DNA from: Blautia massiliensis (ex Durand et al. 2017)
GTDB lineage: Bacteria > Bacillota > Clostridia > Lachnospirales > Lachnospiraceae
Reading direction: 5' to 3'
NCBI RefSeq assembly: GCF_001487165.1
Contig: NZ_LN913006.1
Span: 2,882,657-2,946,656 of the forward strand
DNA length: 64,000 nucleotides
Under the pieces are notes generated by a model. It was not told the DNA's origin. It worked only from the letters and a program-made list of their open reading frames with translations, and did no database searches. Shown here piece after piece: positions 35,248 through 51,830 of this stretch. Numbering within the stretch: the first letter of the stretch is position 1; the number at the start of each line of letters is the position of its first letter. The translations under genes and the position numbers were made by a program.

Positions 35248-35379
35248 GTGAAGGATTATATTGAAGAACGTGCAGTTGAGATCGCAGGATATATTGTTGA
35301 AACAAAGGCTACGGTGCGGCAGGCAGCTAAGAAATTCGGAATCAGTAAGAGTACGGTACACAAGGTAGTGACAATATAG
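35248..35379 (+). pseudogene. spoIIID: 5' part of spoIIID, interrupted by a mobile element
   Basis: A GTG start 7 nt after GGGGG opens a frame encoding KDYIEERAVEIAGYIVET, then KATVRQAAKKFGISKSTVHK, the N-terminus and helix-turn-helix of SpoIIID, the mother-cell transcription regulator of sporulation. After His38 (35359-35361) the sequence leaves the family: the current frame runs VVTI and stops at 35377-35379. The missing second half is found at 51687-51830. The divergence falls exactly at an AAGG shared with the right junction. As written the gene cannot make a whole protein; excision of the intervening DNA would restore it. Confidence 0.88.
35356..35376 (+). other. Left attachment junction (attL)
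   Basis: GTACACAAGG joins spoIIID codons to element sequence TAGTGACAATA. The AAGG at 35362-35365 matches the right junction. TAGTGACAA (35366-35374) also occurs near the right end (51670-51678) in the same orientation, so it is probably part of the recombinase recognition sequence. Confidence 0.7.
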
Positions 35380-35644
35380 AACGTTTTGTGTGGGTGATAG
35401 AATAACAATAACGAAGGTGGAACGGAACCATGAAGGAACTGAAACAAAGAATTATAGGGAATGAAGAATATTCGAAATCGAACAGAAGAAGTTGTATTGA
35501 ATGAATTGATATATGTATAAGCTGAAACGGAGTAGGAAACTGCTCCGTTTTAACATTGTTATAATATGAATAATAACTATGATGCATGAAAAAGTAGTTA
35601 AATGCAAAAAAACGACACATATGTAGGAAAAACAAAAATAACAG
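35380..35644 (+). other. Left-end region of the element, no recognised gene
   Basis: Contains a hairpin AAACGGAG (35525-35532) paired with CTCCGTTT (35543-35550) followed by TT, likely a terminator that isolates the interior from spoIIID transcription. A 24-codon ORF at 35430-35504 has a weak ribosome binding site and is not called. Confidence 0.5.
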
Positions 35645-35673
35645 TTGACATTATGGAGTTGGTTGCATATAAT
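35645..35673 (+). promoter_or_regulatory. Promoter of the AAA ATPase gene
   Basis: TTGACA (35645-35650) and TATAAT (35668-35673), perfect consensus with a 17-bp spacer. Confidence 0.9.
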
Positions 35674-35692
35674 GTATGATGGAGGTGGAACT

Positions 35693-36979
35693 ATGGGAAC
35701 AACAGTATTAAAAAGCATATCAGCTGAAAACTTTGCTTCTTTTGCAGAAAAGGTAACATTTACTTGTGTGGCAGATGGAAGTAAGAAAGAATATGCAATG
35801 AACACTTTTGAATCAGGAGATGAAGTTATTAACAAAGTTTCTTATGTGTATGGTTCTAATGGTTCCGGTAAAACATTTTTTTGCAAGATATTGAGAGAAA
35901 TACAGAGGATGATTGCGTTATCACCGCTCTCGATGATGAAAAGCTCGCAAATAAAAGCATTATTTCCGAGTGAAGAACTGTTAAAACCAATACCCAAGTT
36001 TGCTTTCGATATTGCATATCAGGAGTTACCAACAACTTTAGGTATTGATATGATTATCGATGATGTTACTTATCATTACGAATTTTCGGTCTTAGAGCAA
36101 AAGATTGTTCATGAGCTTTTAACGAAGAAATATCGTAGGACTGAAAAAATTCTGGAAAGAACATCACCATCTTTTCAAGACATAACTGTAAAGTCAGAAC
36201 TTAAAGGCTTTGAAGATACCAAGCGTGTTGTAAAAGAAGATGCATTGTGTCTGGTGATGGCAGCAATGTTGAATAACGATTTCGCAAATATGTTAGTGGA
36301 CGCTATTAAAGAAATTAACATATTTAATATGACCTCTCCACGTTTGAACCCGGGTGAGCTGGAAGCATTTTCTGAAGAACGTATCGAAAAATATGTAAAG
36401 ATATTGAAGAAAGCTGATCCTACCATTCGAGGAATGCAGGTAAAATACGAGGAAGAGGAAGTTGCGAGACAAAAGGTGGATTCTGATGATTTCGAAAACA
36501 GAGAAATTATACAAACTAAGACAACAGTAGGGGTAAAAACGGAACATGCATTATATGACCATGGTATTGAAATTGAGTCTGGAACTGACCAGATAGATTT
36601 TTTTAGAGATGAGTCATTAGGAACTGTTAAATTGTTTACTACGCTACCGCACCTCTTCGATGTGTTGGAAAAAGGCGGTATATTAGTTTTGGATGAGATT
36701 GAAAATAGTTTGCATCCGGCATTAGTTAAAGAAATGATTTCTCTTTTTATAAATGAAGAAAGCAATCCGTATCATGCACAGTTAATATGTACAACACATC
36801 AGCCATTATTGGTTAGTGAGAACGTTAAACGCGACCAAATATGGATTCTTAGTAAAGATGAATTTGGAAAAAGCTCTTTGAAGAGATTGAGTGATAAGAG
36901 CTTTTCAAGAACTAAAGTCAATCTTACAAATAAGATTTTGGAAGGTGCTTTAGGATGTAATCCAGAAAAATTCTTTTAA
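35693..36979 (+). CDS. AAA family ATPase (AAA_15/OLD-like), putative defence ATPase
   Basis: A 428-residue SMC/ABC-like ATPase. Walker A is VYGSNGSGKTFF near residue 48, and Walker B is ILVLDEIENSLHPAL near residue 330, followed by the ICTTHQP sensor histidine. It starts with the usual LKSISAENFASF strand. No TOPRIM or HNH nuclease domain is fused. Such stand-alone ATPases often work with a nuclease partner in abortive infection systems; no typical RloB partner follows. The ATG at 35693 follows GGAGGTGG; an earlier start at 35645 lies inside the promoter and is rejected. First gene inside the element on the left. Confidence 0.8.
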   Translation: MGTTVLKSISAENFASFAEKVTFTCVADGSKKEYAMNTFESGDEVINKVSYVYGSNGSGKTFFCKILREIQRMIALSPLSMMKSSQIKALFPSEELLKPIPKFAFDIAYQELPTTLGIDMIIDDVTYHYEFSVLEQKIVHELLTKKYRRTEKILERTSPSFQDITVKSELKGFEDTKRVVKEDALCLVMAAMLNNDFANMLVDAIKEINIFNMTSPRLNPGELEAFSEERIEKYVKILKKADPTIRGMQVKYEEEEVARQKVDSDDFENREIIQTKTTVGVKTEHALYDHGIEIESGTDQIDFFRDESLGTVKLFTTLPHLFDVLEKGGILVLDEIENSLHPALVKEMISLFINEESNPYHAQLICTTHQPLLVSENVKRDQIWILSKDEFGKSSLKRLSDKSFSRTKVNLTNKILEGALGCNPEKFF

Positions 36980-36999
36980 AACAACACTGGATAGAAAAA

Positions 37000-37026
37000 G
37001 ACACCGAGTTGCCACACCCGGTGTCA
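37000..37026 (+). terminator. Hairpin between the ATPase gene and the next gene
   Basis: GACACCG (37000-37006) pairs with CGGTGTC (37019-37025). There is no strong T-run, so termination is uncertain. The remainder of 37027-37229 is AT-rich with no gene. Confidence 0.4.
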
Positions 37027-37229
37027 TGGAAAGACATAAGTCATAAACTCTGTCTTAATTTAATTCGCAAAGTTAATTCTATCACAGAGTAAAAAAAAAT
37101 ACAATAATATAGAGGTCTTTTCATCAGATTTTGCAAATATTTTTTTGAAAGTGCACTGCCAATGCACAAGAAATCTGTTTTTCTTCCTTGTGATTTTATA
37201 GATATAAAATAAAAAAAGGAGGAAGAGAA

Positions 37230-38123
37230 ATGTATCTTTCTGATTATATTAAAGATGACCGTAAAGGTCATGTGAATTTTGAATTTGTCGATGTACAATT
37301 GGATTCTGATAACCGTATTTTTATCGATCCGGTTGTATTGGAAAACGCAACAGATGAATGGAGCATAAAGGCAAATAATTGTGTACAGTCATTTTTTGAT
37401 TGTTTATTTGAAGCTCTAAAAAATAACCGCTCTGATGAGTTGTTTGACCATGCTCATGAACAGAATGCTACTAAATTAGGTTATGGTAATGGGCAGAATG
37501 GAAAAGGTAAAACTGCTGATGGGTTAGAAGAGGCACTGAGTAAATTAAAAAATTTAGTACATGCTATTCCAACTATCAGTAAAGGTGAAGATATTCCCGT
37601 TTTAGTAGATGGGTTTGCTGAAGATTGTATGTCAGATCTTCTTACCAATATTTTGCATGAACAATTGAATGAATTCACCGCAAGTCAAATGAAGAGCAGG
37701 GATATTCCGGCAGATGGGAAGAAGACCTTTTGGACCTGGGATACGGTAAGCAATACATGGCATCAAGTTACAAAGGAAAGTTGGTTTTATAAAGGTAAGG
37801 AACTGTTGATGGTTCCTAAGTGGATTGTAAGAAAAAATTATCTTTTTAAAGCACATCAGTACCTTTGCGGTGTCATAATTGAAAGAATGCAGACTGAAAA
37901 AGGCTGGGAAGATATGAAAAAGACTGATGTGCTGCATAATATGCCAAAATATAATGAACATTGGGAATACGAAACAGTAATTCAGTATTCGAAAGAACAT
38001 CCGGATGCCTTAGAGGAATATCATAAACGAATTCCTAAATACTACAGTCGTGCTCATGGAATAATGACCGATGAAGAGTTGGATGTGGCAATTTACGGAT
38101 GTGAAATTGAAGACGTTGCTTAA
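37230..38123 (+). CDS. Unknown 297-residue protein in a defence-like cassette
   Basis: I do not recognise this protein. It begins MYLSDYIKDDRKGHVNFEFVD, has an N-terminal region naming FIDPVVLE (acidic, near residues 35-45), a Gly/Lys-rich loop GNGQNGKGKTADG near 90, a tryptophan-rich middle (FWTWDTVSNTWHQ) and many histidines towards the end. No signal peptide or transmembrane segment is seen, so it is cytoplasmic. The Gly/Lys loop is not a clean Walker A. AAAGGAGG precedes the ATG. It sits 250 bp after the AAA ATPase and 105 bp before a DUF2188 gene, all on the same strand, suggesting a functional cassette. Confidence 0.7.
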   Translation: MYLSDYIKDDRKGHVNFEFVDVQLDSDNRIFIDPVVLENATDEWSIKANNCVQSFFDCLFEALKNNRSDELFDHAHEQNATKLGYGNGQNGKGKTADGLEEALSKLKNLVHAIPTISKGEDIPVLVDGFAEDCMSDLLTNILHEQLNEFTASQMKSRDIPADGKKTFWTWDTVSNTWHQVTKESWFYKGKELLMVPKWIVRKNYLFKAHQYLCGVIIERMQTEKGWEDMKKTDVLHNMPKYNEHWEYETVIQYSKEHPDALEEYHKRIPKYYSRAHGIMTDEELDVAIYGCEIEDVA

Positions 38124-38228: not shown

Positions 38229-38447
38229 GTGAATCATCATATAACTAAACGCCCAGATGGAAAGTGGCAGGTAAAAGGAGAAGGAAATCAGCGAGCATCT
38301 GTTGTAACAGATACACAGAGAGAAGCGATAAATTTGGGAAGAGAAATATCCAGAAACCAGCATGGAGAATTATATATCCATGGTGTCGATGGAAAAATAA
38401 GGGCACGAGATTCCCATGGGAATGATCCATATCCTCCCAGAGGGTAA
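38229..38447 (+). CDS. DUF2188 domain protein
   Basis: A 72-residue protein that is essentially one DUF2188 domain: RPDGKWQVKGEGNQRAS, then TDTQREAINLGREISRNQ, GELYIHGVDGKIRARDSHGND split at its centre, ending PYPPRG. The family is small, cytoplasmic and uncharacterised, and is frequent in mobile elements. It starts with GTG after GAGAGGTGA. Its placement behind the AAA ATPase and unknown protein suggests a regulatory or antitoxin-like role, which is inference. Confidence 0.75.
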   Translation: MNHHITKRPDGKWQVKGEGNQRASVVTDTQREAINLGREISRNQHGELYIHGVDGKIRARDSHGNDPYPPRG

Positions 38448-38644: not shown

Positions 38645-38661
38645 TATAGGAGGCGAAACAA

Positions 38662-39030
38662 GTGACAGAGGAAAATATCAAACTTTTTGATTCGGAATTA
38701 AAGGTAATGGATGTTCTGTGGAAGGATGGTGACGTGCCAGCGAAATATGTTGCAGATACTTTAAACAGAGAAGTAGGCTGGAATAAAAACACAACGTATA
38801 CATTGATTAAGCGGTGTATCAATAAAGGCGCGATTGAACGAACGGAACCGGGATTTATGTGCCATGCGCTTATAGCAAAAGAACAGGTACAGGATCTGGA
38901 AACAGATGAACTTATTGATAAGATATATGATGGATCTGTTGACAAGTTGTTTGCGGCACTTCTTGGCAGAAAAAAACTTTCTATGGAGCAGATTAAGAAC
39001 CTGAAGCAGATCGTCAGTGAATTGGAATGA
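38662..39030 (+). CDS. BlaI/MecI/CopY family transcriptional repressor
   Basis: A 122-residue winged-helix repressor. The N-terminal ELKVMDVLWKDGDVPAKYVAD, ending in the helix-turn-helix with NKNTTYTLIKRCINKGAI, is the standard BlaI/MecI DNA-binding domain; the C-terminal helices, including LFAALLGRKKLS, form the dimer. GTG start after TAGGAGGC. It sits behind its own operators and is followed by a BlaR1-like sensor whose start lies 11 bp after its stop. In beta-lactam systems BlaR1 cleaves BlaI; there is no beta-lactamase gene here. Confidence 0.92.
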   Translation: MTEENIKLFDSELKVMDVLWKDGDVPAKYVADTLNREVGWNKNTTYTLIKRCINKGAIERTEPGFMCHALIAKEQVQDLETDELIDKIYDGSVDKLFAALLGRKKLSMEQIKNLKQIVSELE

Positions 39031-39040
39031 GGTGATGCAT

Positions 39041-41065
39041 ATGAGCCTGCTGCAAATGAGTTTTCTGGGAACGGTTATTATTTTACTTATTGTGGTATTA
39101 AGGGCTGTGCTTATCAACAGATTACCGAAGAAAACATTTTTGATTTTATGGTGGATTGCATTAATACGGTTATTAGTTCCATTTTCCATAAAATCAGTCA
39201 CAAGTATTTATTCTCTGTTGCAGAGTATTTATTCTGATATAAACCCAGTGAGAACGGCGCAAACGACAACATTTTTACCCATTCATGGGAATATGCCTGA
39301 GATAGCAAATGGATTATCAGAGGCTATGGTACAGAGAACAGAATCCATTTCGATTTTGAGTGTAATATGGCTGGCAGGTCTGTTACTTTGTTTTGGATTT
39401 TTTGCGGTTTCCTATATAAAATGTTATCGGGAATTTCGATTTTCGCTGCCTGTTGAAAATGATATTTTGGAGGCATGGAAGGAAAAACATCCACTAAAAA
39501 GGAGTTTATCCATTCGGCAGATAGAAACTATAGCGGCACCACTTTCTTATGGTGTGATTCGCCCAGTTATTTTAATGCCGAAAAATACAGAATGGAAAAA
39601 TATTTATCAGCTTCGTTATGTGTTGGAACATGAATATGTGCATATCAGACGGCTTGATATGCTTACAAAGCTGATAATGATTGCTGCAGTATGCATTCAT
39701 TGGTTTAATCCTCTTGTGTGGGTAATGTATATTCTTTTTAACAGAGATTTGGAATTATCCTGTGACGAAACCGTAGTCCGTAGATTTGGAATGGATATAA
39801 AGTCGGTATATGCAACTGCTTTAATATCTATGGAAGAAAAAAAGAGCGGACTGACACCATTATGTAACAGTTTCAGTAAAAATGCGATTGAAGAAAGGAT
39901 AAGAGCAATTATGAAGATAAAGAAGACATCTAAGTTTGCAGTAATTATAAGTGCAGTATTGGTAATTTGCGTGACAGGTGGATTTGCAACTTCCGCATCA
40001 TCCTTGGAAAAAAAGACAGAGACAGCGCAAGAAAACGGTGAAACAACAGTTGCTTTAAACGAAGTGAATATCCGGGAAGATGAATCACTTTCAAGTTCGG
40101 ATGTGGAATGGTGGACAGCAGAAGAGTATGCGAAATGGCTGGACGAGGAAAAAGAAGTTCTGCAGTCTATGATTGGTGAAAAAGCTTATACAGGCGGCGA
40201 CGGATGGTTTGTATGGACACAGGAAAAGGTAGATGAGACGATTGCACTTTATGAGGATAATCTTCAAAAAATAAAAGATGGGATGAAGTTGTCGAAATCA
40301 TCTGATGATGCAGTGGGAATTACAATGGCATATTCTCCGGAAAATATAGAATATGCGAAGCAGGAAGCAGAAACGGTCACCGAAAATAAAGACAGTAATG
40401 AAAATGTATTCAGCGAAGAACAGCTTTCTGAATATGCAAAAGCGGGAATAACTTACCAGAAAGAAACAGGATTTCTGATGTATGATGGAAAGACCATTGG
40501 ATATTTCCGGGATGAGTTTAAGCCGGGTACTTATACAATAAGTTCCAAACGTGGAGGTACGCTTCGAGTTGAAGTGCAAAGGGAAAACTATGGCACCATC
40601 ACAGACGTAAAGGCAGAACCGTTATCAGATGATTTTTGGTCAGAACCGGCGGCATTGGTTGAAAGTTCCGGCGGAGAAGCTGTAACTGCAGATGAAATGA
40701 AAGGATCTGTTTTTGAAGAAGGAGGAAGTGAGAACATAGCGGCTGATGACATGGGCGAATATAGCAGTGAAGAGGGAAAAGGTCTTAATATTGCTGTTCC
40801 ACAGGAGTATGCTGATTATGGAGTATCCTGTGATGCTCAAGGAAACTGGGTTTATAATGGTAAGATTATAGCAGATTTATATGATGAGGGAAGGGGAATC
40901 TTTTCTAACAGCAACGGCACTATGTACATTGAAGTAACGAGAGACAAAAGTGGAAAGATTAGCAGCTTTCAAAAAGTAAGCAAAAATAGAATGCAGGAAT
41001 TATTTACTGAATTTAATCCGGAAGCGGAAACATTTGCGGAATATAATTCAGAGGCGAAGCATTAA
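39041..41065 (+). CDS. M56 family (BlaR1-like) membrane metallopeptidase with unusual extracellular domain
   Basis: A 674-residue protein. The first ~310 residues form four to five membrane helices plus the M56 zinc peptidase with LEHEYVHIRRLD (HExxH) and ELSCDETVVRR. After a final helix (TSKFAVIISAVLVICVTGG) about 350 residues face outward. That ectodomain is not a penicillin-binding sensor: I see no SxxK/KTG set. Instead it carries two copies of a ~55-residue module, GITYQKETGFLMYDGKTIG near 468 and GVSCDAQGNWVYNGKIIA near 592, separated by an acidic Ser/Glu-rich spacer. The signal sensed is unknown. The ATG at 39041 is preceded by GAGGTG. Confidence 0.88.
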   Translation: MSLLQMSFLGTVIILLIVVLRAVLINRLPKKTFLILWWIALIRLLVPFSIKSVTSIYSLLQSIYSDINPVRTAQTTTFLPIHGNMPEIANGLSEAMVQRTESISILSVIWLAGLLLCFGFFAVSYIKCYREFRFSLPVENDILEAWKEKHPLKRSLSIRQIETIAAPLSYGVIRPVILMPKNTEWKNIYQLRYVLEHEYVHIRRLDMLTKLIMIAAVCIHWFNPLVWVMYILFNRDLELSCDETVVRRFGMDIKSVYATALISMEEKKSGLTPLCNSFSKNAIEERIRAIMKIKKTSKFAVIISAVLVICVTGGFATSASSLEKKTETAQENGETTVALNEVNIREDESLSSSDVEWWTAEEYAKWLDEEKEVLQSMIGEKAYTGGDGWFVWTQEKVDETIALYEDNLQKIKDGMKLSKSSDDAVGITMAYSPENIEYAKQEAETVTENKDSNENVFSEEQLSEYAKAGITYQKETGFLMYDGKTIGYFRDEFKPGTYTISSKRGGTLRVEVQRENYGTITDVKAEPLSDDFWSEPAALVESSGGEAVTADEMKGSVFEEGGSENIAADDMGEYSSEEGKGLNIAVPQEYADYGVSCDAQGNWVYNGKIIADLYDEGRGIFSNSNGTMYIEVTRDKSGKISSFQKVSKNRMQELFTEFNPEAETFAEYNSEAKH

Positions 41066-41095
41066 GTTAGTGCTAAATGAAACGAGGATGATTAA

Positions 41096-41527
41096 GTGGG
41101 AAAAATATTGCTGGTATCATTCGAGGGAGATGAGGAAGAGTTGGTAAATTCTGTTATTTCCGTGTTAGATTCCGGCAGAGAAAAATTCCTTTTTCAGGAA
41201 ATACAACTTCAATCGAAAATAAGGCATAAGGGTATAGCGATTGATTTGAAACGGAGGGAAGTTGTTCGTGATAATAGAAAAATAGAATTAACTTACACCG
41301 AGTTTGAAATCCTGCAGTTATTAGCACAAAATCCAGGAAGGGTATTTAGTAAGGAGCAGATTTATGATGTAGTCTGGAAAGAAGCCTATTCTGGCGATTA
41401 CAATATTGTCATGAGTCATATCAGCCATATTCGTGAGAAGATAGAAGATGATCCGGGCAACCCGGTATATATTCAAACCGTCTGGGGTGTAGGATACAAG
41501 TTTAATGAGAGGGCAGGCAGCGAGTAA
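41096..41527 (+). CDS. OmpR/PhoB-type winged-helix DNA-binding protein lacking a full receiver
   Basis: A 143-residue protein. Residues from about 50 form a trans_reg_C winged helix: LTYTEFEILQLLAQNPGRVF, KEQIYDVVWKEA and NIVMSHISHIREKIEDD then IQTVWGVGYKF. The N-terminal 45 residues (GKILLVSFEGDEEELVNSV) resemble neither a complete receiver nor contain the phospho-Asp, so it would be a non-phosphorylated regulator, or a recombined fragment of a response regulator. It follows the BlaR1-like gene by 30 bp. GTG start with ACGAGGA upstream. Confidence 0.75.
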   Translation: MGKILLVSFEGDEEELVNSVISVLDSGREKFLFQEIQLQSKIRHKGIAIDLKRREVVRDNRKIELTYTEFEILQLLAQNPGRVFSKEQIYDVVWKEAYSGDYNIVMSHISHIREKIEDDPGNPVYIQTVWGVGYKFNERAGSE

Positions 41528-41557: not shown

Positions 41558-42601
41558 TCAGATTTCGCTGAGTTTCAAGATAATATTGCTCTGCTGATAC
41601 AGCCAGTCCGTGAATTCCGTTGGCTTGGTTGTTCCTGCCTTTACAGCTTTCTTACGCCGCAGAGCTTCTTTCTTAAAAAGGTCAAACGCAGTTTTCATTT
41701 CTTCCAGACGTTCAATCGGAAAATCAGCAGTTTTTTTGGATTTATTGATTTTATTACGCCAATTCTGGCATTCATTTTTATAAAGCAAATCATAGTTATT
41801 TTCTCTGGCTCGTTCATCAAATTCCCTTTTATTTTGAAGTGCCTGTGCTTTACGGCACTTATCACTGCATAGTTCATAACGCTGGTTTTTTGCCAGAAAA
41901 TATTTTCCACAGACTTTGCACTGACGGAAACAAAGGCCCCAGTCATTCAGCCGATTCAAGTAATAAGTGATAAGCGGATAAAAAGAGCTGTAGGCAGCTA
42001 CGCATTCTGTTCTGCGCCTATTATCCGGAAACCAAAGTTCAAGTCGAGTGATTTCAGCAGGAGTGTTGCGGAAATAAAGACTGCCAGTATGAAAACGTTC
42101 TGGTTTTCCGGTATCAGAATTAAAATTCATGACATTTTCTGTTTGGAATGCCTGAGTCAAAATTTGGATTTTTTCTATAAAACGATCACAGGCAGTATTA
42201 CGGTCACGATATTCCCTTGTAACAAGATATTCATTCCAAATACGGAATGTAGCATACATTCTCACCGGATCACCGGTGAGATATTTTTTTGCCAGAAAAT
42301 CACCAGCAGTCTGTTCCAGTGCAGGCTGTTTCCAACGGTTAGTGTGCAATGCATCACGTAGGGGAGCAAGTCCATATATATTCCAGTTCTTTTCTTTATC
42401 ATATTCAAAATCTATCAGAAAACGTCCGAGAGGGCGCGTTATATCATGCATGACATCGTTATCTTTATTTCCGTCCAGTCGAAAACGGATTTGCTGTTCT
42501 GTTCCGATTAAAATTCGCTCCTTCATTTTGCCCCTGTCCAGTGCCAGAACGAAGAGGATGCGGTCATAGCAAGGCTCTTGCCTTATAAATTGATAAGCCA
42601 T
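41558..42601 (-). CDS. DUF6076 family protein with Cys4 zinc motif
   Basis: A 347-residue cytoplasmic protein. The C-terminal third has CKVCGKYFLAKNQRYELCSD plus CRKAQ, a Cys-x2-Cys...Cys-x3-Cys zinc-binding motif like that of CGNR/DUF6076 proteins found in Lachnospiraceae mobile elements. After it the sequence is basic and helical (Lys/Arg-rich KKAVKAG). The N-terminal two-thirds have no recognised domain. It is convergent with the winged-helix gene and divergent from the excisionase, typical of accessory genes in these elements. Function is unknown. Confidence 0.65.
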   Translation of the reverse strand: MAYQFIRQEPCYDRILFVLALDRGKMKERILIGTEQQIRFRLDGNKDNDVMHDITRPLGRFLIDFEYDKEKNWNIYGLAPLRDALHTNRWKQPALEQTAGDFLAKKYLTGDPVRMYATFRIWNEYLVTREYRDRNTACDRFIEKIQILTQAFQTENVMNFNSDTGKPERFHTGSLYFRNTPAEITRLELWFPDNRRRTECVAAYSSFYPLITYYLNRLNDWGLCFRQCKVCGKYFLAKNQRYELCSDKCRKAQALQNKREFDERARENNYDLLYKNECQNWRNKINKSKKTADFPIERLEEMKTAFDLFKKEALRRKKAVKAGTTKPTEFTDWLYQQSNIILKLSEI

Positions 42602-42917: not shown

Positions 42918-43142
42918 ATGAGTGAAAATAAGAGATTAAACAATTATGATGAACTGCCTCTTGTACTGGATGTGGCTGATATTCAGCGGATTATGGGGAT
43001 TTCCAGAGTAACGGCTTATGAACTGGTTCATACACCCGGTTTTCCGGCATTTCGAAGCGGCAGATTAATTAAGGTTAGTAAAATTGCTTTTTTCGAATGG
43101 ATGGCAAAGGGGAATGGAAGGGTGCCGGAGAATAGTAACTAA
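42918..43142 (+). CDS. Excisionase-like helix-turn-helix protein
   Basis: A 74-residue MerR/Xis-type winged HTH: LVLDVADIQRIMGISRVTAYEL, then FPAFRSGRLIKVSKIAFFEWM, the standard pattern of excisionase family DNA-binding proteins. These direct recombinase to excision or regulate element genes. AATGGAGGAAC precedes the ATG. Element-encoded Xis-type proteins normally partner tyrosine integrases, whereas this element has a serine recombinase; its role may be regulation of the mobilization genes that follow. Confidence 0.85.
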   Translation: MSENKRLNNYDELPLVLDVADIQRIMGISRVTAYELVHTPGFPAFRSGRLIKVSKIAFFEWMAKGNGRVPENSN

Positions 43143-43322: not shown

Positions 43323-44564
43323 TTGAAAGCAACAAGACACAATGGACGCTCCGGAAAAAATGGCACTTACAATCCAAGGCATAATGATCGCCGTTTCAAC
43401 TTGGAAAACAGTGAACATATTGATGTTGGAAGAGTCAGAGAAAATATTTACTGGGACTGTTACCGTGGCTATACCACAATGCAGAGCAGAGAAGATGATG
43501 ATTCTCAGGATATCAGTTTTGAGGAAATTGAATGTACTTTTTATCAGGAACATTATGGAAAGTATATAGAAGCGCAGAATGAAAGAAATGCAAGAACCCG
43601 TCATACAGAGCGTAACCGATCTGTGGAAGATTTACTAAAGAACAATAAAACCTGTCCAGAGGAAACTATTTTTCAAATAGGAACAGTAGAAGAAGCTGTT
43701 TCCTATGAAATATTACTTGCAGTCGTACAGGATTTTACAAAGCAGTTCACAAATCGGTTCGGTTCTCATGTCCATATTCTGGACTGGGCACTGCATTTGG
43801 ACGAAGGAACGCCGCACATTCATGAACGTCATGTTTTTGATTGTGAGAATAAGTACGGGGAAATCTGTCCCCAGCAGGAAAAAGCACTGGAAGAATTAGG
43901 GATTCCACTTCCAAAACCGGATAAACCTAAAGGCCGCAATAATAATCGAAAGCAGACTTTTGATGCTATTTGCCGGACAATGCTTTTTGATATAACTCGA
44001 AAATACGGGTTGCATCTGGAAGAAGAACCGTCTTATGGAGGGCGAGATTATCTTGAAAAGCAGGATTATATCCTGTTTAAGCAAAAGGAACAGATGAAAA
44101 ACCAGACGGAAATACTGGATAGACTTACTTTGAAAATTGAGGATGTGGAAGCTCTGATCGATGAAGTTTCAGATATTGCTTACGACAAAGCTGTGGAGGT
44201 TGTGACGGATGAGGTCAGAGTGGAAACCCATAAAGAAGACATTCGTCTGGTAGAACAGTCAAAGGCGTGGGTGCTTTCCCCTGAGCGCAAGGCTTCCCAA
44301 AAAGAAAGAACTTATGCTGCAAGTCGATTGGACGGAGTAATTACCAAAATTACAAAAGCTATGCAGACAGCAGTTAAAACAATCCAGACCACGCTGATAA
44401 AACCGGAAGTCAAAAAGGTGAATACCGAACAGATTAAGAAAAAAGCCAGAAGTTCCATTCTGGATAGGCTGGCAAAAGCAAAAATTACTGCGGAACAGGA
44501 GAACCGAGAGCGATGGGAACACGAAGGAAGAACTAAATTGGGAAGGAACGATATGGAGTTGTGA
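43323..44564 (+). CDS. Plasmid-recombination/mobilization relaxase (MobV-like)
   Basis: A 413-residue DNA-nicking relaxase. The metal-binding triad is LHLDEGTPHIHERHVF near residue 158, matching the MobV/Pre signature HxDExTPHxH. N-terminal RHNDR and the GTYNPRHND block fit the DNA-binding start of such proteins. The C-terminal half is coiled-coil (KQKEQMKNQTEILDRLTLK). A TTG start 12 nt after GGAGG is inferred because no ATG fits the family start. It nicks oriT to transfer the element using a helper conjugation apparatus, none of which is seen here, hence 'mobilizable' rather than conjugative. Confidence 0.85.
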   Translation: MKATRHNGRSGKNGTYNPRHNDRRFNLENSEHIDVGRVRENIYWDCYRGYTTMQSREDDDSQDISFEEIECTFYQEHYGKYIEAQNERNARTRHTERNRSVEDLLKNNKTCPEETIFQIGTVEEAVSYEILLAVVQDFTKQFTNRFGSHVHILDWALHLDEGTPHIHERHVFDCENKYGEICPQQEKALEELGIPLPKPDKPKGRNNNRKQTFDAICRTMLFDITRKYGLHLEEEPSYGGRDYLEKQDYILFKQKEQMKNQTEILDRLTLKIEDVEALIDEVSDIAYDKAVEVVTDEVRVETHKEDIRLVEQSKAWVLSPERKASQKERTYAASRLDGVITKITKAMQTAVKTIQTTLIKPEVKKVNTEQIKKKARSSILDRLAKAKITAEQENRERWEHEGRTKLGRNDMEL

Positions 44565-45290: not shown

Positions 45291-46548
45291 CTGTAAGCTA
45301 ATTTTAGAACATGATCCTCTGTTAAAAGATGTATTCCGGCACAATATTTTGACTGAGCAGACAGACATTGTAAAACCCGTGTGGTGGGAACGGATAAGCC
45401 CGGCATTCACAGATATGGATTTGAACTATATTATGCTTTATTTGGAAGAGACTTACGGTTTGACGATGGATAAGATTGTGCAGAAAAGTATTGTCCATCA
45501 GGCAGATCGGAACAAATATCACCCTGTCCGGGATTATTTGAACAGTCTGCAATGGGATGGGCAGGAACGTATCCGCTATGTGCTGCATCATTTTCTTGGT
45601 GCACCTGTGGATGAGTTGACCTATGAAAGTATGAAAATGTTTTTGCTGGGAGCTATTGCCCGTGCGTTCCGCCCCGGAATTAAGTTTGAATATATGCTCT
45701 GTCTGGTCGGGGGTCAGGGCGTGGGAAAATCTACATTTTTTCGTTTCATGGCAGTAAAGGATGACTGGTTCACTGATGACATTGGCAAGCTGGATTCAGA
45801 AAAAGTTTATTGTCAGCTTCGCGGTCACTGGATGATTGAAATGTCTGAAATGGTTGCAACGGCACGTTCCAAGAGTATTGAGGAAACAAAGAGCTTTCTG
45901 AGCAGGCAGAAAGAGACTTATCGGGATTCTTATGCAGTATATGCTCTTGATCGTCCGAGACAATGTGTATTTGTAGGAACATCCAATATTAAGCGATTCC
46001 TGCCGTTTGACCGTACCGGAAATCGAAGATTCGTTCCGGTTCAGACGAACCGGGCAGAGATGGAGGTTCATATCCTCGAAAATGAGAAGGAATCCAGACA
46101 GTATATTGATCAGGTGTGGGCGGAAGCAATGATGTTGTACCGTAATGGGAATTTTAAATTGGCGTTTTCAAAGGAAACAGAAGCACAGCTTGATAAATTG
46201 CGGCAGGAGTTCATGGCGGATGATACGGAGGCCGGAATGATACAGGCATGGCTGGATGAACATGAGGATAGGAAAGTCTGTTCATTGATGCTGTTTAAGG
46301 AGGCACTGGACAATCCTTATATAAAGCCGAAGAAGGCGGAGACAGACCGCATCTGTGAAATCATGAATACAAGTATTGTGGGTTGGAAACAGGGGACGAT
46401 GACAAGATTCAAGGATTACGGTACACAGCGTTCGTGGGTATGTGTAAACGAAAACTGTAAACGAGACGCAAAAGACTTAAAAAATGAAAATGACTGGCAT
46501 CCGGTTACTGAGGAGGAAGCCCGGCAGATGGAGTTATCCTTCCAGTAA
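45142..46548 (+). CDS. VapE domain (virulence-associated E) replication helicase-like protein
   Basis: A 468-residue P-loop ATPase. Walker A is LVGGQGVGKSTFFRF near residue 192; the Walker B/sensor region is HWMIEMSEM and the typical FVGTSNIKRFLPFDRTGNRRF block is near 275. VapE proteins serve as superfamily 3-like helicases in replication of phages and genomic islands. Start is TTG at 45142, 7 nt after AAGGAGGTG, which lies inside the preceding primase gene, giving a 149-nt out-of-frame overlap. Together the two proteins probably replicate the excised circle. Confidence 0.9.
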   Translation: MNREFQTLSPQTRQELCEVMDIMETELTVEEIREQLEMTQKGAVKNNRHNCKLILEHDPLLKDVFRHNILTEQTDIVKPVWWERISPAFTDMDLNYIMLYLEETYGLTMDKIVQKSIVHQADRNKYHPVRDYLNSLQWDGQERIRYVLHHFLGAPVDELTYESMKMFLLGAIARAFRPGIKFEYMLCLVGGQGVGKSTFFRFMAVKDDWFTDDIGKLDSEKVYCQLRGHWMIEMSEMVATARSKSIEETKSFLSRQKETYRDSYAVYALDRPRQCVFVGTSNIKRFLPFDRTGNRRFVPVQTNRAEMEVHILENEKESRQYIDQVWAEAMMLYRNGNFKLAFSKETEAQLDKLRQEFMADDTEAGMIQAWLDEHEDRKVCSLMLFKEALDNPYIKPKKAETDRICEIMNTSIVGWKQGTMTRFKDYGTQRSWVCVNENCKRDAKDLKNENDWHPVTEEEARQMELSFQ

Positions 46549-46730: not shown

Positions 46731-46855
46731 AACAGGGGTGCCCCTTTGACCGGCATTTATTGAAGTTGAACAGGAATGACATTTGGTAGGACTATTTGAA
46801 AAAATATTTTCATAGTTATGGACAAGGATATACGGGAGGAGGTGGAAATTCCGCT

Positions 46856-47032
46856 ATGAAAAAGAGAAAACTTAATTATCGATTCCATAATCCAAACACT
46901 GCGGAAGTAACCGCCGACTATCTGTTAAAGATATTGATTGAAGCAAATGCAAGTAAGGTGGAACAGGCAATACAAGAAGCAGCGGATGAGCTTCCCGAGC
47001 AGATGAATGGTACAGAAGGGCACTCTACATAG
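46856..47032 (+). CDS. Small conserved mobile-element protein
   Basis: A 58-residue basic-then-acidic protein: MKKRKLNYRFHNPNTAEVTA followed by DYLLKILIEANASKVEQAI. Similar small proteins are commonly found in Lachnospiraceae transposons next to recombinase genes. I prefer the ATG at 46856 preceded by GGGAGGAGG over an upstream in-frame start at 46796. Function unknown; it could be a regulator. It is followed by a short hairpin-like region and the promoter of the next operon. Confidence 0.65.
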   Translation: MKKRKLNYRFHNPNTAEVTADYLLKILIEANASKVEQAIQEAADELPEQMNGTEGHST

Positions 47033-47159
47033 GAATGTAGGGTGTCTTTTGAGCTGTGTGTGGAGAGAGGAATAAAAGTGTCATAAAGAAAAACAAGGGT
47101 AGATATAGACAAATAAATTTGATATAATTAACCTGATAAAGTATACGGAGGTGAAAAGT

Positions 47160-48020
47160 ATGGAAAAGAACAAATTAAATATTTTGAATAAAATTTTTTC
47201 TCGTAGTACTTTTCGCAACTGTTTTGATAATGGATATGATAAAACATACAGTCAAGTTGTTAGAAGATACGTCGATAATGGTACAGGAAAGCAAAATTCA
47301 GAATTGATAAGTCAAATTTATAATGTATTAAGAGAAGGTTATAGAAACGAATATTATTATAAAAATACATTGTTGAATAAATTATTATTAGGCATACATA
47401 GTGTGAATACGACAACCGCATTAACGGAAATTCCTATTGCAAAGTCTAAAGCAGATTTTGTTTTGATTAATGGTAAAGCAGTTGTGTATGAAATAAAAAC
47501 GGAATTGGATAATTTTGATAGATTGGAAAATCAAATAAATGATTATTATAAGGCATTTGATCATGTAGCGGTTGTTACTTGCAAAGAAAATCTTCAGGTA
47601 TTGAAGAAAAAGATAGAAATGATTGGAAAACCTGTTGGTATTTACATTTTGCAAAAACGTGGAACTATAACAACAATACAAAAGCCACAGGCATATAGCG
47701 TAGAGTTAGATGCTGAAATTCTTTTTAAGATATTGAGAAAACAAGAATACGAAGAAATCCTTTTTAATAAATATAAACATTTGCCGGATGTTTCAGAATT
47801 TAAATACTATTCAGAGTGTAAAAAAATGTTTTTAGAGATACCATTAGAAGAAGCATATTTATCAGTTTTGAAGCTTTTAAAAAAGAGAAGTCAAATTATA
47901 AAAGACGAATTTAGTAAGATTCCTTATGAACTAAAATTTTTGGCATATTTTATGAATTTGAAATCTGATGATTATAAAAAGATAACGAAATTTTTGAATG
48001 AATCCTATGGAGGTGTGTAA
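47160..48020 (+). CDS. sce7726 family protein (PD-(D/E)XK-like)
   Basis: A 286-residue cytoplasmic protein. The region IPIAKSKADFVLINGKAVVY followed by EIKTELDNFDRLENQINDYY is the pattern of a PD-(D/E)XK nuclease core (Asp, then Glu-x-Lys) as in sce7726 proteins. The C-terminal half is helical and lysine-rich. ATG at 47160 lies 8 nt after GGAGG; a TATAAT at 47123-47128 suggests a local promoter. It is the first gene of a tight operon with sce7725 and a RES protein (1-nt and 2-nt gaps). The activity is inferred; family function is uncharacterised as far as I know. Confidence 0.8.
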   Translation: MEKNKLNILNKIFSRSTFRNCFDNGYDKTYSQVVRRYVDNGTGKQNSELISQIYNVLREGYRNEYYYKNTLLNKLLLGIHSVNTTTALTEIPIAKSKADFVLINGKAVVYEIKTELDNFDRLENQINDYYKAFDHVAVVTCKENLQVLKKKIEMIGKPVGIYILQKRGTITTIQKPQAYSVELDAEILFKILRKQEYEEILFNKYKHLPDVSEFKYYSECKKMFLEIPLEEAYLSVLKLLKKRSQIIKDEFSKIPYELKFLAYFMNLKSDDYKKITKFLNESYGGV

Positions 48021-48021
48021 A

Positions 48022-48954
48022 ATGTATTTTCCGTATTTACGTGGAAGACAATTTGAGTTAATTGCTTTGCGAGAATTGCTGGAAGGAAAACGTATTAGCG
48101 AAAAAGTTATTCCGATAATAGAACCGGTGAAACCATCTTCAACATTATTAAAAACATTAGAAACATTTGTTAAAAATGATAGAGAAATTGCGGTAGTATT
48201 TAATCCAACAGTGGGGGATTTCGCAAAAAAGTTGAAGGAAATGCGTGAAGAAGATTCCAAGGTTGCTAATGAAATGTATGATTTACTAACCCAAAATGAT
48301 AAAGTGATTAAGTCTTATATCATGGATCGTGGTATTTTATCTGAAATAAAAAGTGAAGCATCTAAGAATAAATATCTTATTATAAATTTGAATAGGGATT
48401 GCTTGGATGACTTTTTGGATGCATACGAAGATACATTACCACGATTTACGTTAATTCCGGATGATAGAGCTTTTAGACGAGTAATTCCAGATTCAAAAGT
48501 TTTATTTGAAGATAACTTTAATAAGCAATCTAGAAATATTGATTATATAGACAATCAGGATGAATTCTTTTCAGATAGTCATTTATATTATCAGAATGAA
48601 AATTATGTTGGATTTGCAGATTATTCTGTTGTTGGAGAAGAATTTAATGAATCAGGATTTGCTCCGGTTGCAGTAGCGATTCATGTTGTTTATTTTGATA
48701 AAAAAAAGGAATTGCGGATACATCATTTTGTTTCTGATTCAAATGAGGGAATCGAAGACCCGGGTGGAAAATTTGGTGAAGCACTGGAAAAATTAGTTTA
48801 CTGGTGTGACGAAAATAATGTACAGAATACATTAGGTTTACAAGGGTTTTATGATTGTTATAGTTCTGGAAAATATCCAGGTTTAGGAACAGTTAAGAAA
48901 TATTCTATTATGCATCATATTGAGTTGGTCAGCAATTTCTTGGGAGGAAAATAA
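48022..48954 (+). CDS. sce7725 family protein (beta family)
   Basis: A 310-residue protein beginning MYFPYLRGRQFELIALREL, the signature start of sce7725 proteins. Other conserved pieces are KVIPIIEPVKPS, IAVVFNPTVGDF, VGFADYSVVGEEFNESGFAP and the C-terminal LGLQGFYDCY. The fold is TIM-barrel-like in related beta proteins. I chose ATG 48022, preceded by GGAGGTG, one base after the sce7726 stop. sce7725 and sce7726 genes habitually occur side by side, which implies one complex or pathway. Function is unknown. Confidence 0.82.
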   Translation: MYFPYLRGRQFELIALRELLEGKRISEKVIPIIEPVKPSSTLLKTLETFVKNDREIAVVFNPTVGDFAKKLKEMREEDSKVANEMYDLLTQNDKVIKSYIMDRGILSEIKSEASKNKYLIINLNRDCLDDFLDAYEDTLPRFTLIPDDRAFRRVIPDSKVLFEDNFNKQSRNIDYIDNQDEFFSDSHLYYQNENYVGFADYSVVGEEFNESGFAPVAVAIHVVYFDKKKELRIHHFVSDSNEGIEDPGGKFGEALEKLVYWCDENNVQNTLGLQGFYDCYSSGKYPGLGTVKKYSIMHHIELVSNFLGGK

Positions 48955-48956
48955 TA

Positions 48957-50039
48957 ATGCAGATTGGATTAGAATGCTTTTTGGATGAGCAGCTCAGTTC
49001 AATGATTGCAAGTGAAAATCGACATGGTGATTGCGAAATCCAACATAAAACGGATTGTATTATTTATGATACGGAAGAAGATCATTATTTAGAAGAGTAT
49101 CTGGAAGAAATTATGGATGCTTTTACGGTAGCTAAACATCTTAAAGTTACCGAGTCAGATGTAAGGGCAGATTATTTAAAGAATTTTTTGAGTAAATGGA
49201 AAGTGTTTTCTGTTACAGGGGACGATATACAGCAGATCATTACAGCTATTTGTAGTGAACGGTATCAAGATGAACCAGAGTTATTTGACGAGAAGGTTAC
49301 AATACGAGAATTCTTTTCGGCGGATACAATGGAACAACAATGTATCCTAAAAACTTATAATTGGGATGATTTTTGTTATAATATCAAGCATGTAAATAGA
49401 TTTCATTCTCAGCAAGTTAATTTTGATCAATTAGAGAATTTGTTAAAAAACATGGTCATTGATATTCCGAAAGGTACTTTAAAATTATTTCGTTCAAGAA
49501 TATGCGATGAGGATAGTTATACTTCTGGATATTCTACGAGAAAAATGGGAGTGCCACCAGTAGCATTAACAACGGCTGGACGAACAAATTCAGAAGGTAT
49601 TCAATGCTTGTATCTGGCAGGTGATGAGGAAACCACCTTTCATGAAGTAAGAGCAAGGGATTATGATCATGTATCTGTCGGAGAGTTTATTCAAACAAAA
49701 GATTTGCGAATAGTGGATTTGAGTTTGTTTGATAAAATAGGTCCTTTTTCTATCCCTGATTTTGATATGACATGGTTTGCAATTAACATTGAAATCATTC
49801 GAAAAATTGGAGATGAGGTTGCAAAACCGATGCGACGATTTGACCGTGCATTGGATTATGTGCCAACGCAGTATATTTGTGATTATATCAAGCACTTAGG
49901 ATATGATGGAATAAAATTTAAAAGTACGTTGGTTGATGGTGGAACAAATTATGCTATTTTTAATGAAAAGAAATTTGAATGTACGAATGTAAAGGTTGTT
50001 CAAATAGGAAACATTGATTATAATTGGAGTCCATTATAA
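48957..50039 (+). CDS. RES-domain protein (NAD+ phosphorylase/toxin family)
   Basis: A 360-residue protein. The C-terminal half is a RES domain: LFRSRICDE near residue 178 (conserved Arg), GVPPVALTTAGRTNSEGIQC and LYLAGDEETTFHEVRA near 229 (conserved Glu), and LDYVPTQYICDYIKHLGYDG then IKFKSTL near 320 (conserved Ser region). Known RES toxins degrade NAD+ by phosphorolysis. The N-terminal ~140 residues are acidic and cysteine-containing and may be a sensor or interaction domain; this arrangement differs from simple Xre-RES toxin-antitoxin pairs, and no Xre antitoxin is present. It starts 2 bp after the sce7725 stop. Confidence 0.82.
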   Translation: MQIGLECFLDEQLSSMIASENRHGDCEIQHKTDCIIYDTEEDHYLEEYLEEIMDAFTVAKHLKVTESDVRADYLKNFLSKWKVFSVTGDDIQQIITAICSERYQDEPELFDEKVTIREFFSADTMEQQCILKTYNWDDFCYNIKHVNRFHSQQVNFDQLENLLKNMVIDIPKGTLKLFRSRICDEDSYTSGYSTRKMGVPPVALTTAGRTNSEGIQCLYLAGDEETTFHEVRARDYDHVSVGEFIQTKDLRIVDLSLFDKIGPFSIPDFDMTWFAINIEIIRKIGDEVAKPMRRFDRALDYVPTQYICDYIKHLGYDGIKFKSTLVDGGTNYAIFNEKKFECTNVKVVQIGNIDYNWSPL

Positions 50040-50079
50040 GTATAAGGTTAAAGGCAAGGGAAAATGTGAAAGTTATCTC

Positions 50080-50107
50080 TTGCTTTTTTTACTTGTTTTG
50101 CTATAAT
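50080..50107 (+). promoter_or_regulatory. Promoter of the serine recombinase gene
   Basis: TTGCTT (50080-50085) and TATAAT (50102-50107) with a 16-bp spacer, 45 bp before the recombinase start. This allows expression independent of the RES operon. Confidence 0.6.
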
Positions 50108-50152
50108 AAAGTTGTAACAGAACGACTTAAATATAACAGAAAGGCACTGAAT

Positions 50153-51688
50153 ATGAATATAGCAGCTTACTGCCGTGTCTCCACTGATAAAGCCGACCAG
50201 CTCAACAGTCTGGAAGCTCAAAAGCAATTTTTTTCTGAGTACACCCAGCGTACTGGTGACAACTTAGTTAGATTATATGCAGATGAGGGTATTTCAGGCA
50301 CGAAAATAAAAAATCGAAAAGAATTTTTACGCATGATGGCTGATGCTGAACATGGACTATTTGATATGGTAGTAGTAAAGGACATCTCTCGCTTTGCCAG
50401 AAATACTGTAGACCTTCTGCAGAATGTCCGCAAACTGAAAGCATTAGGAATCGAGACACAGTTTTTGACGGCCAACATGACCAGCATGGGAAACAGTGAA
50501 TTTGTTCTGACAATCTTCGGTGCATTGGCGCAGGAAGAAAGTGCCAATACTTCAAAGCGTGTGAAATTCGGCAAGAAAATGAATGCTGAAAAAGGACGAG
50601 TTCCGAATATTGTGTACGGATATGATAAAACCATTGGAGATTACTTTAATTTGGCAATCAACGAGGGAGAAGCAGCTGTTATCAGGCAGATTTATAAATG
50701 GTATATCGAAGAAGGATATGGTGCCGCCAAGATTGCAAACATGCTGAATGCGAAAGGTATCCGAACAAAGCGTAATTGTCAGTGGAGCCAGAATGCGACG
50801 TGCCGGATTTTAACGAATGAACTTTATACCGGAAAAATTATCAACGGCAAGCAGGAAGTAGCTGACTTCCTGACTGGACAGAGAACGGAAAAAGACGAGA
50901 CGGAGTGGATGGTAACAGAACGTCCGGAACTGCGGATTATTGAGCCGGAAATGTATGAAAAGGCACAGGAGATTTTGGAGTGCAGAAGCAAGACTTTTAA
51001 ATTAACAAAGGAACGGCAGAGCAATAAGTATTTGTTTTCTACTCTGATTAAATGTAAGGAATGTGGCTGGTCATTTCGACGAACTGTTCGTACTTATAAG
51101 AATACTTATATTCGCTGGGTATGTTCCGGTCATAATGGACGTGGGGCGGATAGCTGCCCGAATGCTCAGACAGTGGACGAGGAAGAGTTGATTGAAGTTC
51201 TGTCCGAATACTTTTCCGAGCTGCTGAAAGCAAAGAAAAATGTAATTCGTCACGTAACAGGCGAATTCCAGAGGGTTTACAAAGCCAAGGATGAGAACCT
51301 GAATTACGAAAAGGAATTGAACGCACAGCTTCACAAGCTTCAAAAAATGCGTCAGAAATACATAGATATGTACACCGATGACCTCATTACACGTGAGGAA
51401 CTGAATGAAAAAATCGGCGGCACAAAACAGGAAATCGAGCGTCTGGAGAATGAGTTGAAAATGGTTGCTTATCACCTGACAAAAGGTGAACAACTGGAAA
51501 CAATCTTGAATCGCACGTTTAAAGAGATTGAAGATATTTCCGATGTTCACCAGATGACCAATGCACAGCTTAAACGGATTATCCAGAAAATTGAAGTAGA
51601 CAAGGATGGTAACGTAGATATTTACTTACGAATCTTCGGTGATTTAGGCTTAGATGAAACCGTTCTAATTAGTGACAACCAAACATAA
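50153..51688 (+). CDS. Large serine recombinase (site-specific integrase/excisase of the element)
   Basis: A 511-residue large serine recombinase. The catalytic serine is Ser10 in AAYCRVSTDK; the resolvase domain continues through YADEGISGTKIKNRKEF and VVKDISRFARN. A recombinase domain (GYGAAKIANMLNAKGIRTK), a zinc ribbon (CKECGWSFRR ... CSGHNGRGADSC) and a C-terminal coiled coil (residues ~410-470) follow in the standard order. The ATG at 50153 begins the family N-terminus; an earlier in-frame start would add a non-homologous stretch. The TAA stop (51686-51688) overlaps the AAGG of the right junction with spoIIID, so the gene abuts its own attachment site. Confidence 0.93.
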   Translation: MNIAAYCRVSTDKADQLNSLEAQKQFFSEYTQRTGDNLVRLYADEGISGTKIKNRKEFLRMMADAEHGLFDMVVVKDISRFARNTVDLLQNVRKLKALGIETQFLTANMTSMGNSEFVLTIFGALAQEESANTSKRVKFGKKMNAEKGRVPNIVYGYDKTIGDYFNLAINEGEAAVIRQIYKWYIEEGYGAAKIANMLNAKGIRTKRNCQWSQNATCRILTNELYTGKIINGKQEVADFLTGQRTEKDETEWMVTERPELRIIEPEMYEKAQEILECRSKTFKLTKERQSNKYLFSTLIKCKECGWSFRRTVRTYKNTYIRWVCSGHNGRGADSCPNAQTVDEEELIEVLSEYFSELLKAKKNVIRHVTGEFQRVYKAKDENLNYEKELNAQLHKLQKMRQKYIDMYTDDLITREELNEKIGGTKQEIERLENELKMVAYHLTKGEQLETILNRTFKEIEDISDVHQMTNAQLKRIIQKIEVDKDGNVDIYLRIFGDLGLDETVLISDNQT

Positions 51689-51700
51689 GGATTGCGTAGA
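51669..51700 (+). other. Right attachment junction (attR)
   Basis: TAGTGACAACCAAACATAAGG ends the element at 51690; spoIIID coding sequence resumes with ATTGCGTAGAACG. AAGG at 51687-51690 matches the left junction, and the base before it (CAT versus CAC on the left) still encodes His. Confidence 0.75.
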
Positions 51701-51830
51701 ACGCCTGAAAGTGATCAATCCGGCTCTGGCCATAGAAGTTCGCAAGGTACTGGATGTAAACAAGCAGGAGCGACATATCCGGGGAGGTATCGCTACCCGG
51801 GAAAAATATCTCCATGCTCACATGCGGTGA
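51687..51830 (+). pseudogene. spoIIID: 3' part of spoIIID
   Basis: From AAG at 51687 the frame encodes KDCVERLKVINPALAIEVRK, then VLDVNKQERHIRGGIATREK and YLHAHMR, ending in TGA. This is the second half of SpoIIID, including the basic C-terminal RHIRGGxATxEKY motif. Joined after codon 38 of the 5' part it gives ...SKSTVHK-DCVERL..., matching SpoIIID proteins and the expected length of about 85 residues. There is no ribosome binding site here, so the fragment is silent on its own. The stretch 51831-52013 holds no other gene. Confidence 0.88.

Follow-up and report, generated by a model that had tools for sequence, protein, structure and literature searches.

A serine recombinase element docked in spoIIID of Blautia massiliensis and related Clostridia, with traits of a proposed mother-cell excision switch

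We analysed a stretch of 64,000 nucleotides from Blautia massiliensis (ex Durand et al. 2017), contig NZ_LN913006.1, positions 2,882,657 to 2,946,656 (hereafter the window), in which the sporulation gene spoIIID is split by an element carrying a large serine recombinase. Most likely this is a spreading element of the mobilizable type that docks in spoIIID and is excised in the mother cell, where the gene would be restored; precedent, promoter layout and conservation argue strongly for such an excision and for its restoring sporulation. Sequence comparisons show that a widespread family of elements uses spoIIID as its dedicated docking site. An earlier note on the window, made from its letters alone, had proposed a skin-like developmental switch. 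That proposal gained support from a fixed site with in-frame rejoining and a recombinase and small-protein pair, both found in 31 of 31 complete loci, and from a mother-cell-like promoter before the small gene. Developmental rearrangement by excision has so far been described in few strains and genes. If our reading is true, it is a trait that spreads horizontally and is common among the spore-forming Clostridia living as commensals, and it affects an early mother-cell regulator, not late genes.

The split gene and its recurrence

The features of the locus are as follows.

35248..35379, + strand, spoIIID 5′ half: codons 1-38, GTG start, ends SKSTVH (Pfam and sequence)
35345..35385, + strand, attL, limits approximate: ...AGTACGGTACAC/AAGGTAGTGAC... 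(attL of 31 loci compared)
46790..46818, + strand, sigma-E-like promoter of the candidate recombination directionality factor (RDF): GACTATTT-12-TCATAGTTA
46818-46825, + strand, SpoIIID-like sequence ATGGACAA, a WWRRACAR match
46856..47032, + strand, 58-residue protein, candidate RDF
50080..50107, + strand, sigma-A-type recombinase promoter TTGCTT-16-TATAAT, by eye
50153..51688, + strand, large serine recombinase: resolvase, recombinase and zinc-ribbon domains (Pfam)
51665..51705, + strand, attR, limits approximate: GTGACAACCAAACAT/AAGGATTGC (compared across loci)
51687..51830, + strand, spoIIID 3′ half (KDCVERL...), from AAG 51687 to TGA 51828-51830

The break in spoIIID falls after codon 38 (His, 35359-35361), beyond which the reading frame runs through five element codons to a TAG at 35377-35379. 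The 3′ half begins inside the recombinase stop codon, TAA 51686-51688, which covers its first two bases; the overlap at the right junction had been described correctly in the earlier note. Each half alone passes the Pfam SpoIIID cut-off (66.7 bits for the N half and 68.3 bits for the C half; 3.1e-19 for the 43-residue N part), and with these matches and coordinates the split by a 16.3-kb recombinase-bearing element was confirmed. Joining the flanks at the core gave an unbroken 85-residue SpoIIID, as had been predicted, scoring 154.5 bits with a model made from the intact SpoIIID of 30 relatives, and an element length of 16,325 bases. The G+C content of the element is 37.6%, compared with 44.2% elsewhere in the window, and just upstream of 35248 lies a sigma-E-type spoIIID promoter, TCATACC-14-CATACACT.

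Of what the earlier note had named as telling against its reading, the two points open to sequence analysis, a second copy of the gene and loss of other sporulation genes (see below), came out in favour of that reading. A profile search of the organism's own genome (3.7 Mb in 4 contigs, rated 100% complete) found no second intact spoIIID, the sole other match being a sub-threshold stretch within a 352-residue frame. An empty site is present in a congener (L017), where the same neighbours, a GDT1-type gene upstream and an ACT-domain gene downstream, flank an intact SpoIIID that is 95% identical.

Named genomes searched with the recombinase yielded 142 relatives, and the best 80 were analysed further. 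Their hosts include Blautia, Extibacter, Schaedlerella, [Ruminococcus] torques, Agathobaculum, Flavonifractor, Pseudoflavonifractor and Angelakisella, together with many metagenome-assembled genomes (MAGs) of Lachnospiraceae and Oscillospiraceae. Cultured commensals among the carriers include Blautia schinkii, Extibacter muris DSM 28560 and Schaedlerella arabinosiphila DSM 106076, the last with an element of 5.3 kb on a 6.3-Mb contig. In 77 of the 80 the spoIIID 3′ half was found at most 169 bases past the aligned recombinase end (one of them, L081, counted on 12 residues before its contig ended). To count as complete, a locus had to have its two halves no more than about 20 kb apart on the same contig; 30 of the first 50 carriers qualified and, with the window, made 31. 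The cut codon was identical in all 31 loci read end to end, and joining at ACA(C/T) restored an unbroken SpoIIID in each (111-163 bits with the same model). As the same break recurs in dozens of genomes, it is not due to chance.

The loci also revealed which part of the junction is shared. The earlier note had singled out AAGG, and this sequence is indeed present at both junctions of the window, but its left-hand copy is unique to the window among the 31 aligned loci, where most attL read ACATA(T/C)GG or similar. AAGG was therefore ruled out as a general crossover core; the core common to the relatives is ACA(C/T), directly before the junction AAGG. An attP reconstructed by eye from the two attachment sites has ATACATA at the centre of an inverted repeat, the form expected for the large serine recombinase class.

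The split gene was seen also where genomes were not picked by the recombinase. A set of 61 close genomes included six with both half-genes (G000, G004, G007, G009, G010, G036), four with a single half (G014, G033, G042, G054) and two with a half plus a full copy (G012, G052). Nine stretches taken from eight of these genomes, independently of the recombinase, included six with a relative of it, 37-86% identical (one genome, G009, is also that of L053), and three with the 5′ half only (L209, L213, L214); five of the nine have a 5′ half, and each time it breaks off at the same codon as above. A survey covered 396 genomes of the family with a completeness of 90% or more. SpoIIID exceeded the cut-off in 255 of them, and 28 of these, about one in ten, had half-length best matches only, 21 of them with two or more SpoIIID matches. 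These counts of 28 and 21, like the lists behind the 200-genome table used below, were compiled by hand, and most of the 28 were judged by best-match length, without the positions of the halves, so that contig breaks may lie behind some.

A few loci depart from the usual arrangement. A variant element in a congener (L206, 584-2300) has a small gene and a recombinase (61% identical) beside the 5′ half, i.e. at the left end. In G012 (L004, ~1130-1740) a complete spoIIID with its own promoter is preceded, about 235 bases upstream, by a 5′ half and an attL signature, likely the scar of a lost element. Two or three 5′-half matches precede the element end in 5 of the first 50 carriers (L133/G486, G477, G478, G479, G480), and in L133 there are two full 5′ halves, each with its own promoter, as if elements were stacked.

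The recombinase, the small protein and their promoters

To compare gene content we ran tblastn with the 16 element genes of the window against the 31 complete elements, which range from 3.8 to 18.8 kb. The recombinase and a 58-residue protein were the only two present in 31 of 31, including the smallest element of 3.8 kb; the next commonest gene, an AAA ATPase, was found in 11 of 31. A search with seven seeds, taken from the window and five of the positives, detected the small protein in 72 of the 80 loci; in the other eight, the sequence available ahead of the recombinase was shorter than 1.6 kb. The protein matches no family in NCBIfam, PHROGs or Pfam. Its predicted structure (mean pLDDT 80.6) has an extended start and one helix, residues 16-45, and no fold match in the PDB. 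Its position and size and its presence in every complete element make it the best candidate for the RDF.

We looked at the sequences upstream of the small gene, which in most loci printed read CTATT or TAATAAT, 12-14 bases, then TCATAG. A two-block promoter model was fitted on 101 upstream sequences, those of 30 intact and 31 split spoIIID genes and 40 spoIVA genes, starting from preset CATA and ATA blocks; some of the spoIVA stretches were wrongly anchored, and at a threshold of 8 bits the model recovers 81% of its own training sequences. A site of at least 8 bits was present in 69% of 70 small-gene upstream sequences (68% of 69 valid ones, L081 being invalid), in 8% of 350 shuffles, in 12% of 78 recombinase upstream sequences and before 11% of 227 other element open reading frames (ORFs) of at least 100 residues, a set in which three elements were shortened by a loose pattern. 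The shuffles were made in 2-mer blocks and do not preserve dinucleotides exactly, and relatedness is uncorrected in these tests. The best site contains CATA in 60 of the 70. Sigma-E control is suggested for the small gene and was rejected for the recombinase, whose upstream sequences score like shuffles and carry a sigma-A-type promoter, TTTACA / TATAAT by eye in many relatives.

The layout suggests how the element could be tied to sporulation. Codon 38/39 of spoIIID serves the serine recombinase as attB; in vegetative cells the enzyme would be expressed constitutively and carry out integration only. Once sigma-E is on in the mother cell, it would transcribe both the spoIIID 5′ half and the small protein; the latter would act as RDF, excision would join spoIIID, and the SpoIIID then made would let the mother-cell programme proceed to sigma-K. 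The mother cell dies and the forespore would inherit the element in place, and for this reason the site would stay harmless to the host and protected for the element.

A further step is conceivable at the end of this sequence. The motif WWRRACAR is the SpoIIID consensus, and a match lies 6-11 bases after CATA in 35 of 69 small-gene upstream sequences (34 of the 35 at 6-7 bases), ATGGACAA in the window; within the last 90 bases 42 of 69 have a match, compared with a mean of 5.6 and a maximum of 14 in shuffles. The SpoIIID of B. subtilis acts as a repressor on part of the sigma-E regulon (PMC517825). We would guess that restored SpoIIID closes the RDF gene. The fuller proposal is that the family has turned spoIIID into a common docking site in Lachnospiraceae and their kin and has taken over the spoIIID switch, with an RDF under sigma-E that times SpoIIID and a restored SpoIIID that turns the RDF gene off again from a site directly past the -10 box. 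It is speculative and on balance doubtful.

Mobility, host sporulation and alternative explanations

Compared with its counterpart in B. schinkii, the element of the window shows 97.8% identity in an 8.4-kb core and 97.3% in the 1.7-kb recombinase end, while the chromosomal flanks are 80.5-81.0% identical; with B. glucerasea the values are 97.1% for the core, 87.8% for the recombinase end and 76% for one flank. Over the 31 loci, recombinase and SpoIIID distances were uncorrelated (Mantel r 0.13, with 110 of 999 permutations as high). As core identity exceeds that of the flanks and the distances are uncorrelated, the element, on this comparison, moves between species, and simple vertical domestication was ruled out as the general case.

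The remaining genes of the element give clues to its class:

35690..36979, + strand, AAA ATPase of AbiLi/abortive-infection type, cargo (Pfam AAA_21 6.1e-27; PADLOC AbiLi 7.1e-62)
37230-38123, + strand, cargo gene, weak PADLOC PDC-M36A, in the window element only, of 31
38229-38447, + strand, cargo gene, DUF2188, PADLOC PDC-S16, in the window element only, of 31
38662..41527, + strand, genes for a BlaI-like repressor, an M56 (BlaR1-type) membrane peptidase and a response-regulator C-terminal domain (Pfam)
41558..42601, - strand, DUF6076 protein (Pfam 24.1 bits, cut-off 23.5)
42918..43142, + strand, HTH_17 excisionase-like DNA-binding protein, in 3 of 31 elements
43323..44564, + strand, relaxase-like gene, motif HLDEGTPHIH in its translation, in 6 of 31 elements
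44586-45290, + strand, CHC2 zinc-finger primase part, in 4 of 31 elements
45142-46548, + strand, VapE-type helicase, in 6 of 31 elements
47151..50039, + strand, sce7726-family, Beta-protein-like (weak) and RES-domain proteins, cargo, absent from the other 30 complete elements

The start of the AAA ATPase at 35690 is an inner ATG, the longest frame beginning at 35645. Its AbiLi likeness makes it resemble a defence gene, as do weaker PADLOC matches for other cargo. The relaxase-like protein, which from its motif we take to be MOBV-like, gave no usable match in Pfam, NCBIfam or a PDB sequence search. No capsid, tail, portal or terminase gene was recognised among the 16 element genes by Pfam or among nine proteins by PHROGs. 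Given the relaxase-like gene, the primase and helicase parts and the lack of a recognised phage structural gene, the element is probably of the integrative, mobilizable type, with the relaxase as a candidate; it has its own integrase and shows signs of transfer between hosts. The skin-like reading is supported, with two corrections. The element sits inside a sporulation gene whose halves are in frame when joined, with a serine recombinase at its edge, but it looks mobilizable, not prophage-like, and is one of a large family. As a separate observation, the BlaI/BlaR1-like regulator pair (38662-41065) is accompanied by no beta-lactamase family named in the Pfam scan of the element genes.

We next consider the hosts, for which sporulation was judged on marker genes. 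SpoIVA was found in the organism's own genome and in 47 of 49 carriers, both misses being MAGs. In a sample of 200 family genomes not picked by the recombinase, SpoIVA was kept in 15 of 15 genomes with half-length SpoIIID, in 109 of 112 with full-length SpoIIID and in 8 of 73 with none above the cut-off (Fisher p 1.5e-11 for half-length versus absent, relatedness uncorrected). A sigma-K-type factor, too, is encoded within a single frame of the own genome and covers profile positions 25-224 of 227; its 277 bits fall below the curated cut-off of 298.65, as was the case in 21 of 26 genomes searched. The loss of other sporulation genes, which the earlier note had named, together with a lack of any excision product, as telling against a switch, was not seen in these markers, and the host appears to keep its sporulation programme. 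Ethanol-resistant, possibly spore-forming Blautia are known, as are ethanol-resistant Flavonifractor spores (PMC7801112).

The split gene itself appears to be under purifying selection, with a median dN/dS of 0.134 (27 pairs) compared with 0.09 in intact copies (44 pairs; relatedness uncorrected), and a CATA-type spoIIID promoter was seen by eye in most of the 31 complete loci. The C half alone has a dN/dS of 0.187 (35 pairs). It has no start codon at its beginning, the earliest in-frame start-like codon being a GTG at its ninth codon; as it is nevertheless conserved, its translation probably takes place in frame with that of the N half.

In two carriers another sporulation gene also seems to be split. 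In Pseudoflavonifractor sp. Marseille-P3106 (G460), SpoIVA is in two pieces (C20:236830-237279 and 489491-489769), 252 kb apart on one contig and strand, by insertion, rearrangement or misassembly. In Flavonifractor sp. An82 (G467; L204, 758-18660), the matches to positions 21-67 and 66-213 of the sigK profile are separated by 17 kb on the same strand, and a serine-recombinase-like frame (by eye, 16508-18253) stands directly before the 3′ part; this strain may carry a skin-like sigK element together with the spoIIID element.

Several observations weigh against the mother-cell excision proposed here. The horizontal movement means that the intact frame could in part reflect recent insertion, and dN/dS is somewhat higher in the split copies than in the intact ones. 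The small-gene promoter of the window has the usual layout and scores only 5.0 bits, and its -10 reads CATAG, whereas host promoters mostly have CATA(C/T). The recombinase lies outside spoIIID in three of the 80 relatives (L038, L043, L051), possibly at secondary sites; the genome of L051 has an intact spoIIID and none was found in those of L038 and L043. A whole-genome search found full-length spoIIID in none of the first 50 carriers (49 with parts only, one without the gene), but five of the 80 carrier genomes, all among the second 30, have one: L051, with the element elsewhere, and the MAGs L082, L084, L089 and L092. Finally, no excised circle was detected: IMG/VR held no stretch matching one exact attP pattern, the window-specific attP was absent from the own genome assembly, and a degenerate pattern with one mismatch gave only two matches in 50 carriers, one a known attL and the other a known attR. 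The absence of a circle junction from assemblies is weak evidence, as these hide rare forms.

The extra copies in the four MAGs were compared with the split ones. That of L092 is 83-84% identical in coding sequence and 73% in the flank, that of L089 is 78% identical over 94 bases, that of L084 is 96% identical over 137 bases, to the contig end, and that of L082 does not align with the split copy over the gene. By this divergence they look like other strains or bins, and were rejected as excised empty sites; L084 is the least clear of the four.

The alternative that survives best is a plain disruptive insertion, in which a mobilizable element that happens to dock in spoIIID abolishes sporulation, leaving asporogenous carriers with half-genes that have only recently become ruins. 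It would fit the horizontal spread, with the B. schinkii identities and the non-significant Mantel test, and the lack of a circle in the assemblies searched. It does not account for SpoIVA in every half-length genome, nor for the unbroken frame in all 31 joined loci, the retained spoIIID promoters and the low dN/dS. A mother-cell-like promoter before the small gene would be superfluous for a mere parasite, and the recombinase and small protein are kept even in 3.8-kb elements. We regard this explanation as improbable.

Still less probable is a population-level switch, in which excision and reinsertion occur at random, free of cell-type control, and a fraction of the cells can sporulate. The sigma-A-type recombinase promoter would suit such a switch, and the yin element in yabG of C. 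botulinum is excised at all time points (PMC10747680). The sigma-E-like sequence before the candidate RDF points instead to mother-cell control, and the missing circle junctions speak, weakly, against this explanation too. That split SpoIIID works as its N half or as a two-piece protein, making excision needless, is hardly credible, for although the 43-residue N half keeps its helix-turn-helix match, the C half opens inside the recombinase stop, without an initial start codon, and is nevertheless conserved.

Excision in the mother cell, our preferred explanation, would show how a gene required solely in a doomed cell can shelter an element. Gene-presence surveys may wrongly score such species as lacking SpoIIID, and a compact pair of recombinase and candidate RDF with a defined attB would be on offer.

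Comparison with known systems

SP-beta, vfbin, vrin (whose target is spoVR) and yin resemble the spoIIID element in leaving a sporulation gene by excision, and differ in being prophages or prophage-like. Excision has been described for SP-beta from spsM (SprA, SprB), for vfbin from spoVFB and for yin from yabG (PMC4191935, PMC10747680, PMC5025042), and none of these targets is spoIIID. The earlier note's remark that spoIIID is not usually named among such genes agrees with the available excerpts of the literature, which name sigK, spsM, spoVFB, spoVR, gerE and yabG. No report of spoIIID as an element target was found in one open-access literature collection, to which this negative is limited; the excerpts of a paper on Anaerostipes mention the gene only as a strain difference.

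The gin element in gerE of Bacillus cereus ATCC 10987 (GirC, GirX) is, like the spoIIID element, a non-phage element in a very short gene of a mother-cell transcription factor. It has three recombinases, spans 28.6 kb and is known from one strain (PMC5595907), whereas the spoIIID element has one recombinase family and many host species. The skin element of B. subtilis shares with it a serine recombinase (SpoIVCA) and an excision that rebuilds a mother-cell regulator. It differs in target (sigK), in site, in being prophage-like and in recombinase control, the recombinase gene of skin being driven by sigma-E jointly with SpoIIID (PMC5025042).

The skin element of C. difficile is alike in having a large serine recombinase beside the 3′ part of a mother-cell regulator gene, a sigma-A-type promoter for the recombinase (CD1231) and a sigma-E promoter for the small RDF gene (CD1234; PMC5025042), the RDF and its sigma-E promoter being candidates in our case. 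It differs in its target, sigK there and spoIIID here, upstream of sigK in the cascade; the spoIIID element has many host species, and its candidate RDF is without family match. CD1234 also needs SpoIIID for its activation (PMC5025042), which would be impossible at the onset here, SpoIIID being the product to be restored. As SpoIIID drives skin excision in both B. subtilis and C. difficile, and would here be what excision restores, the sporulation network of the carriers must, on our reading, be rewired.

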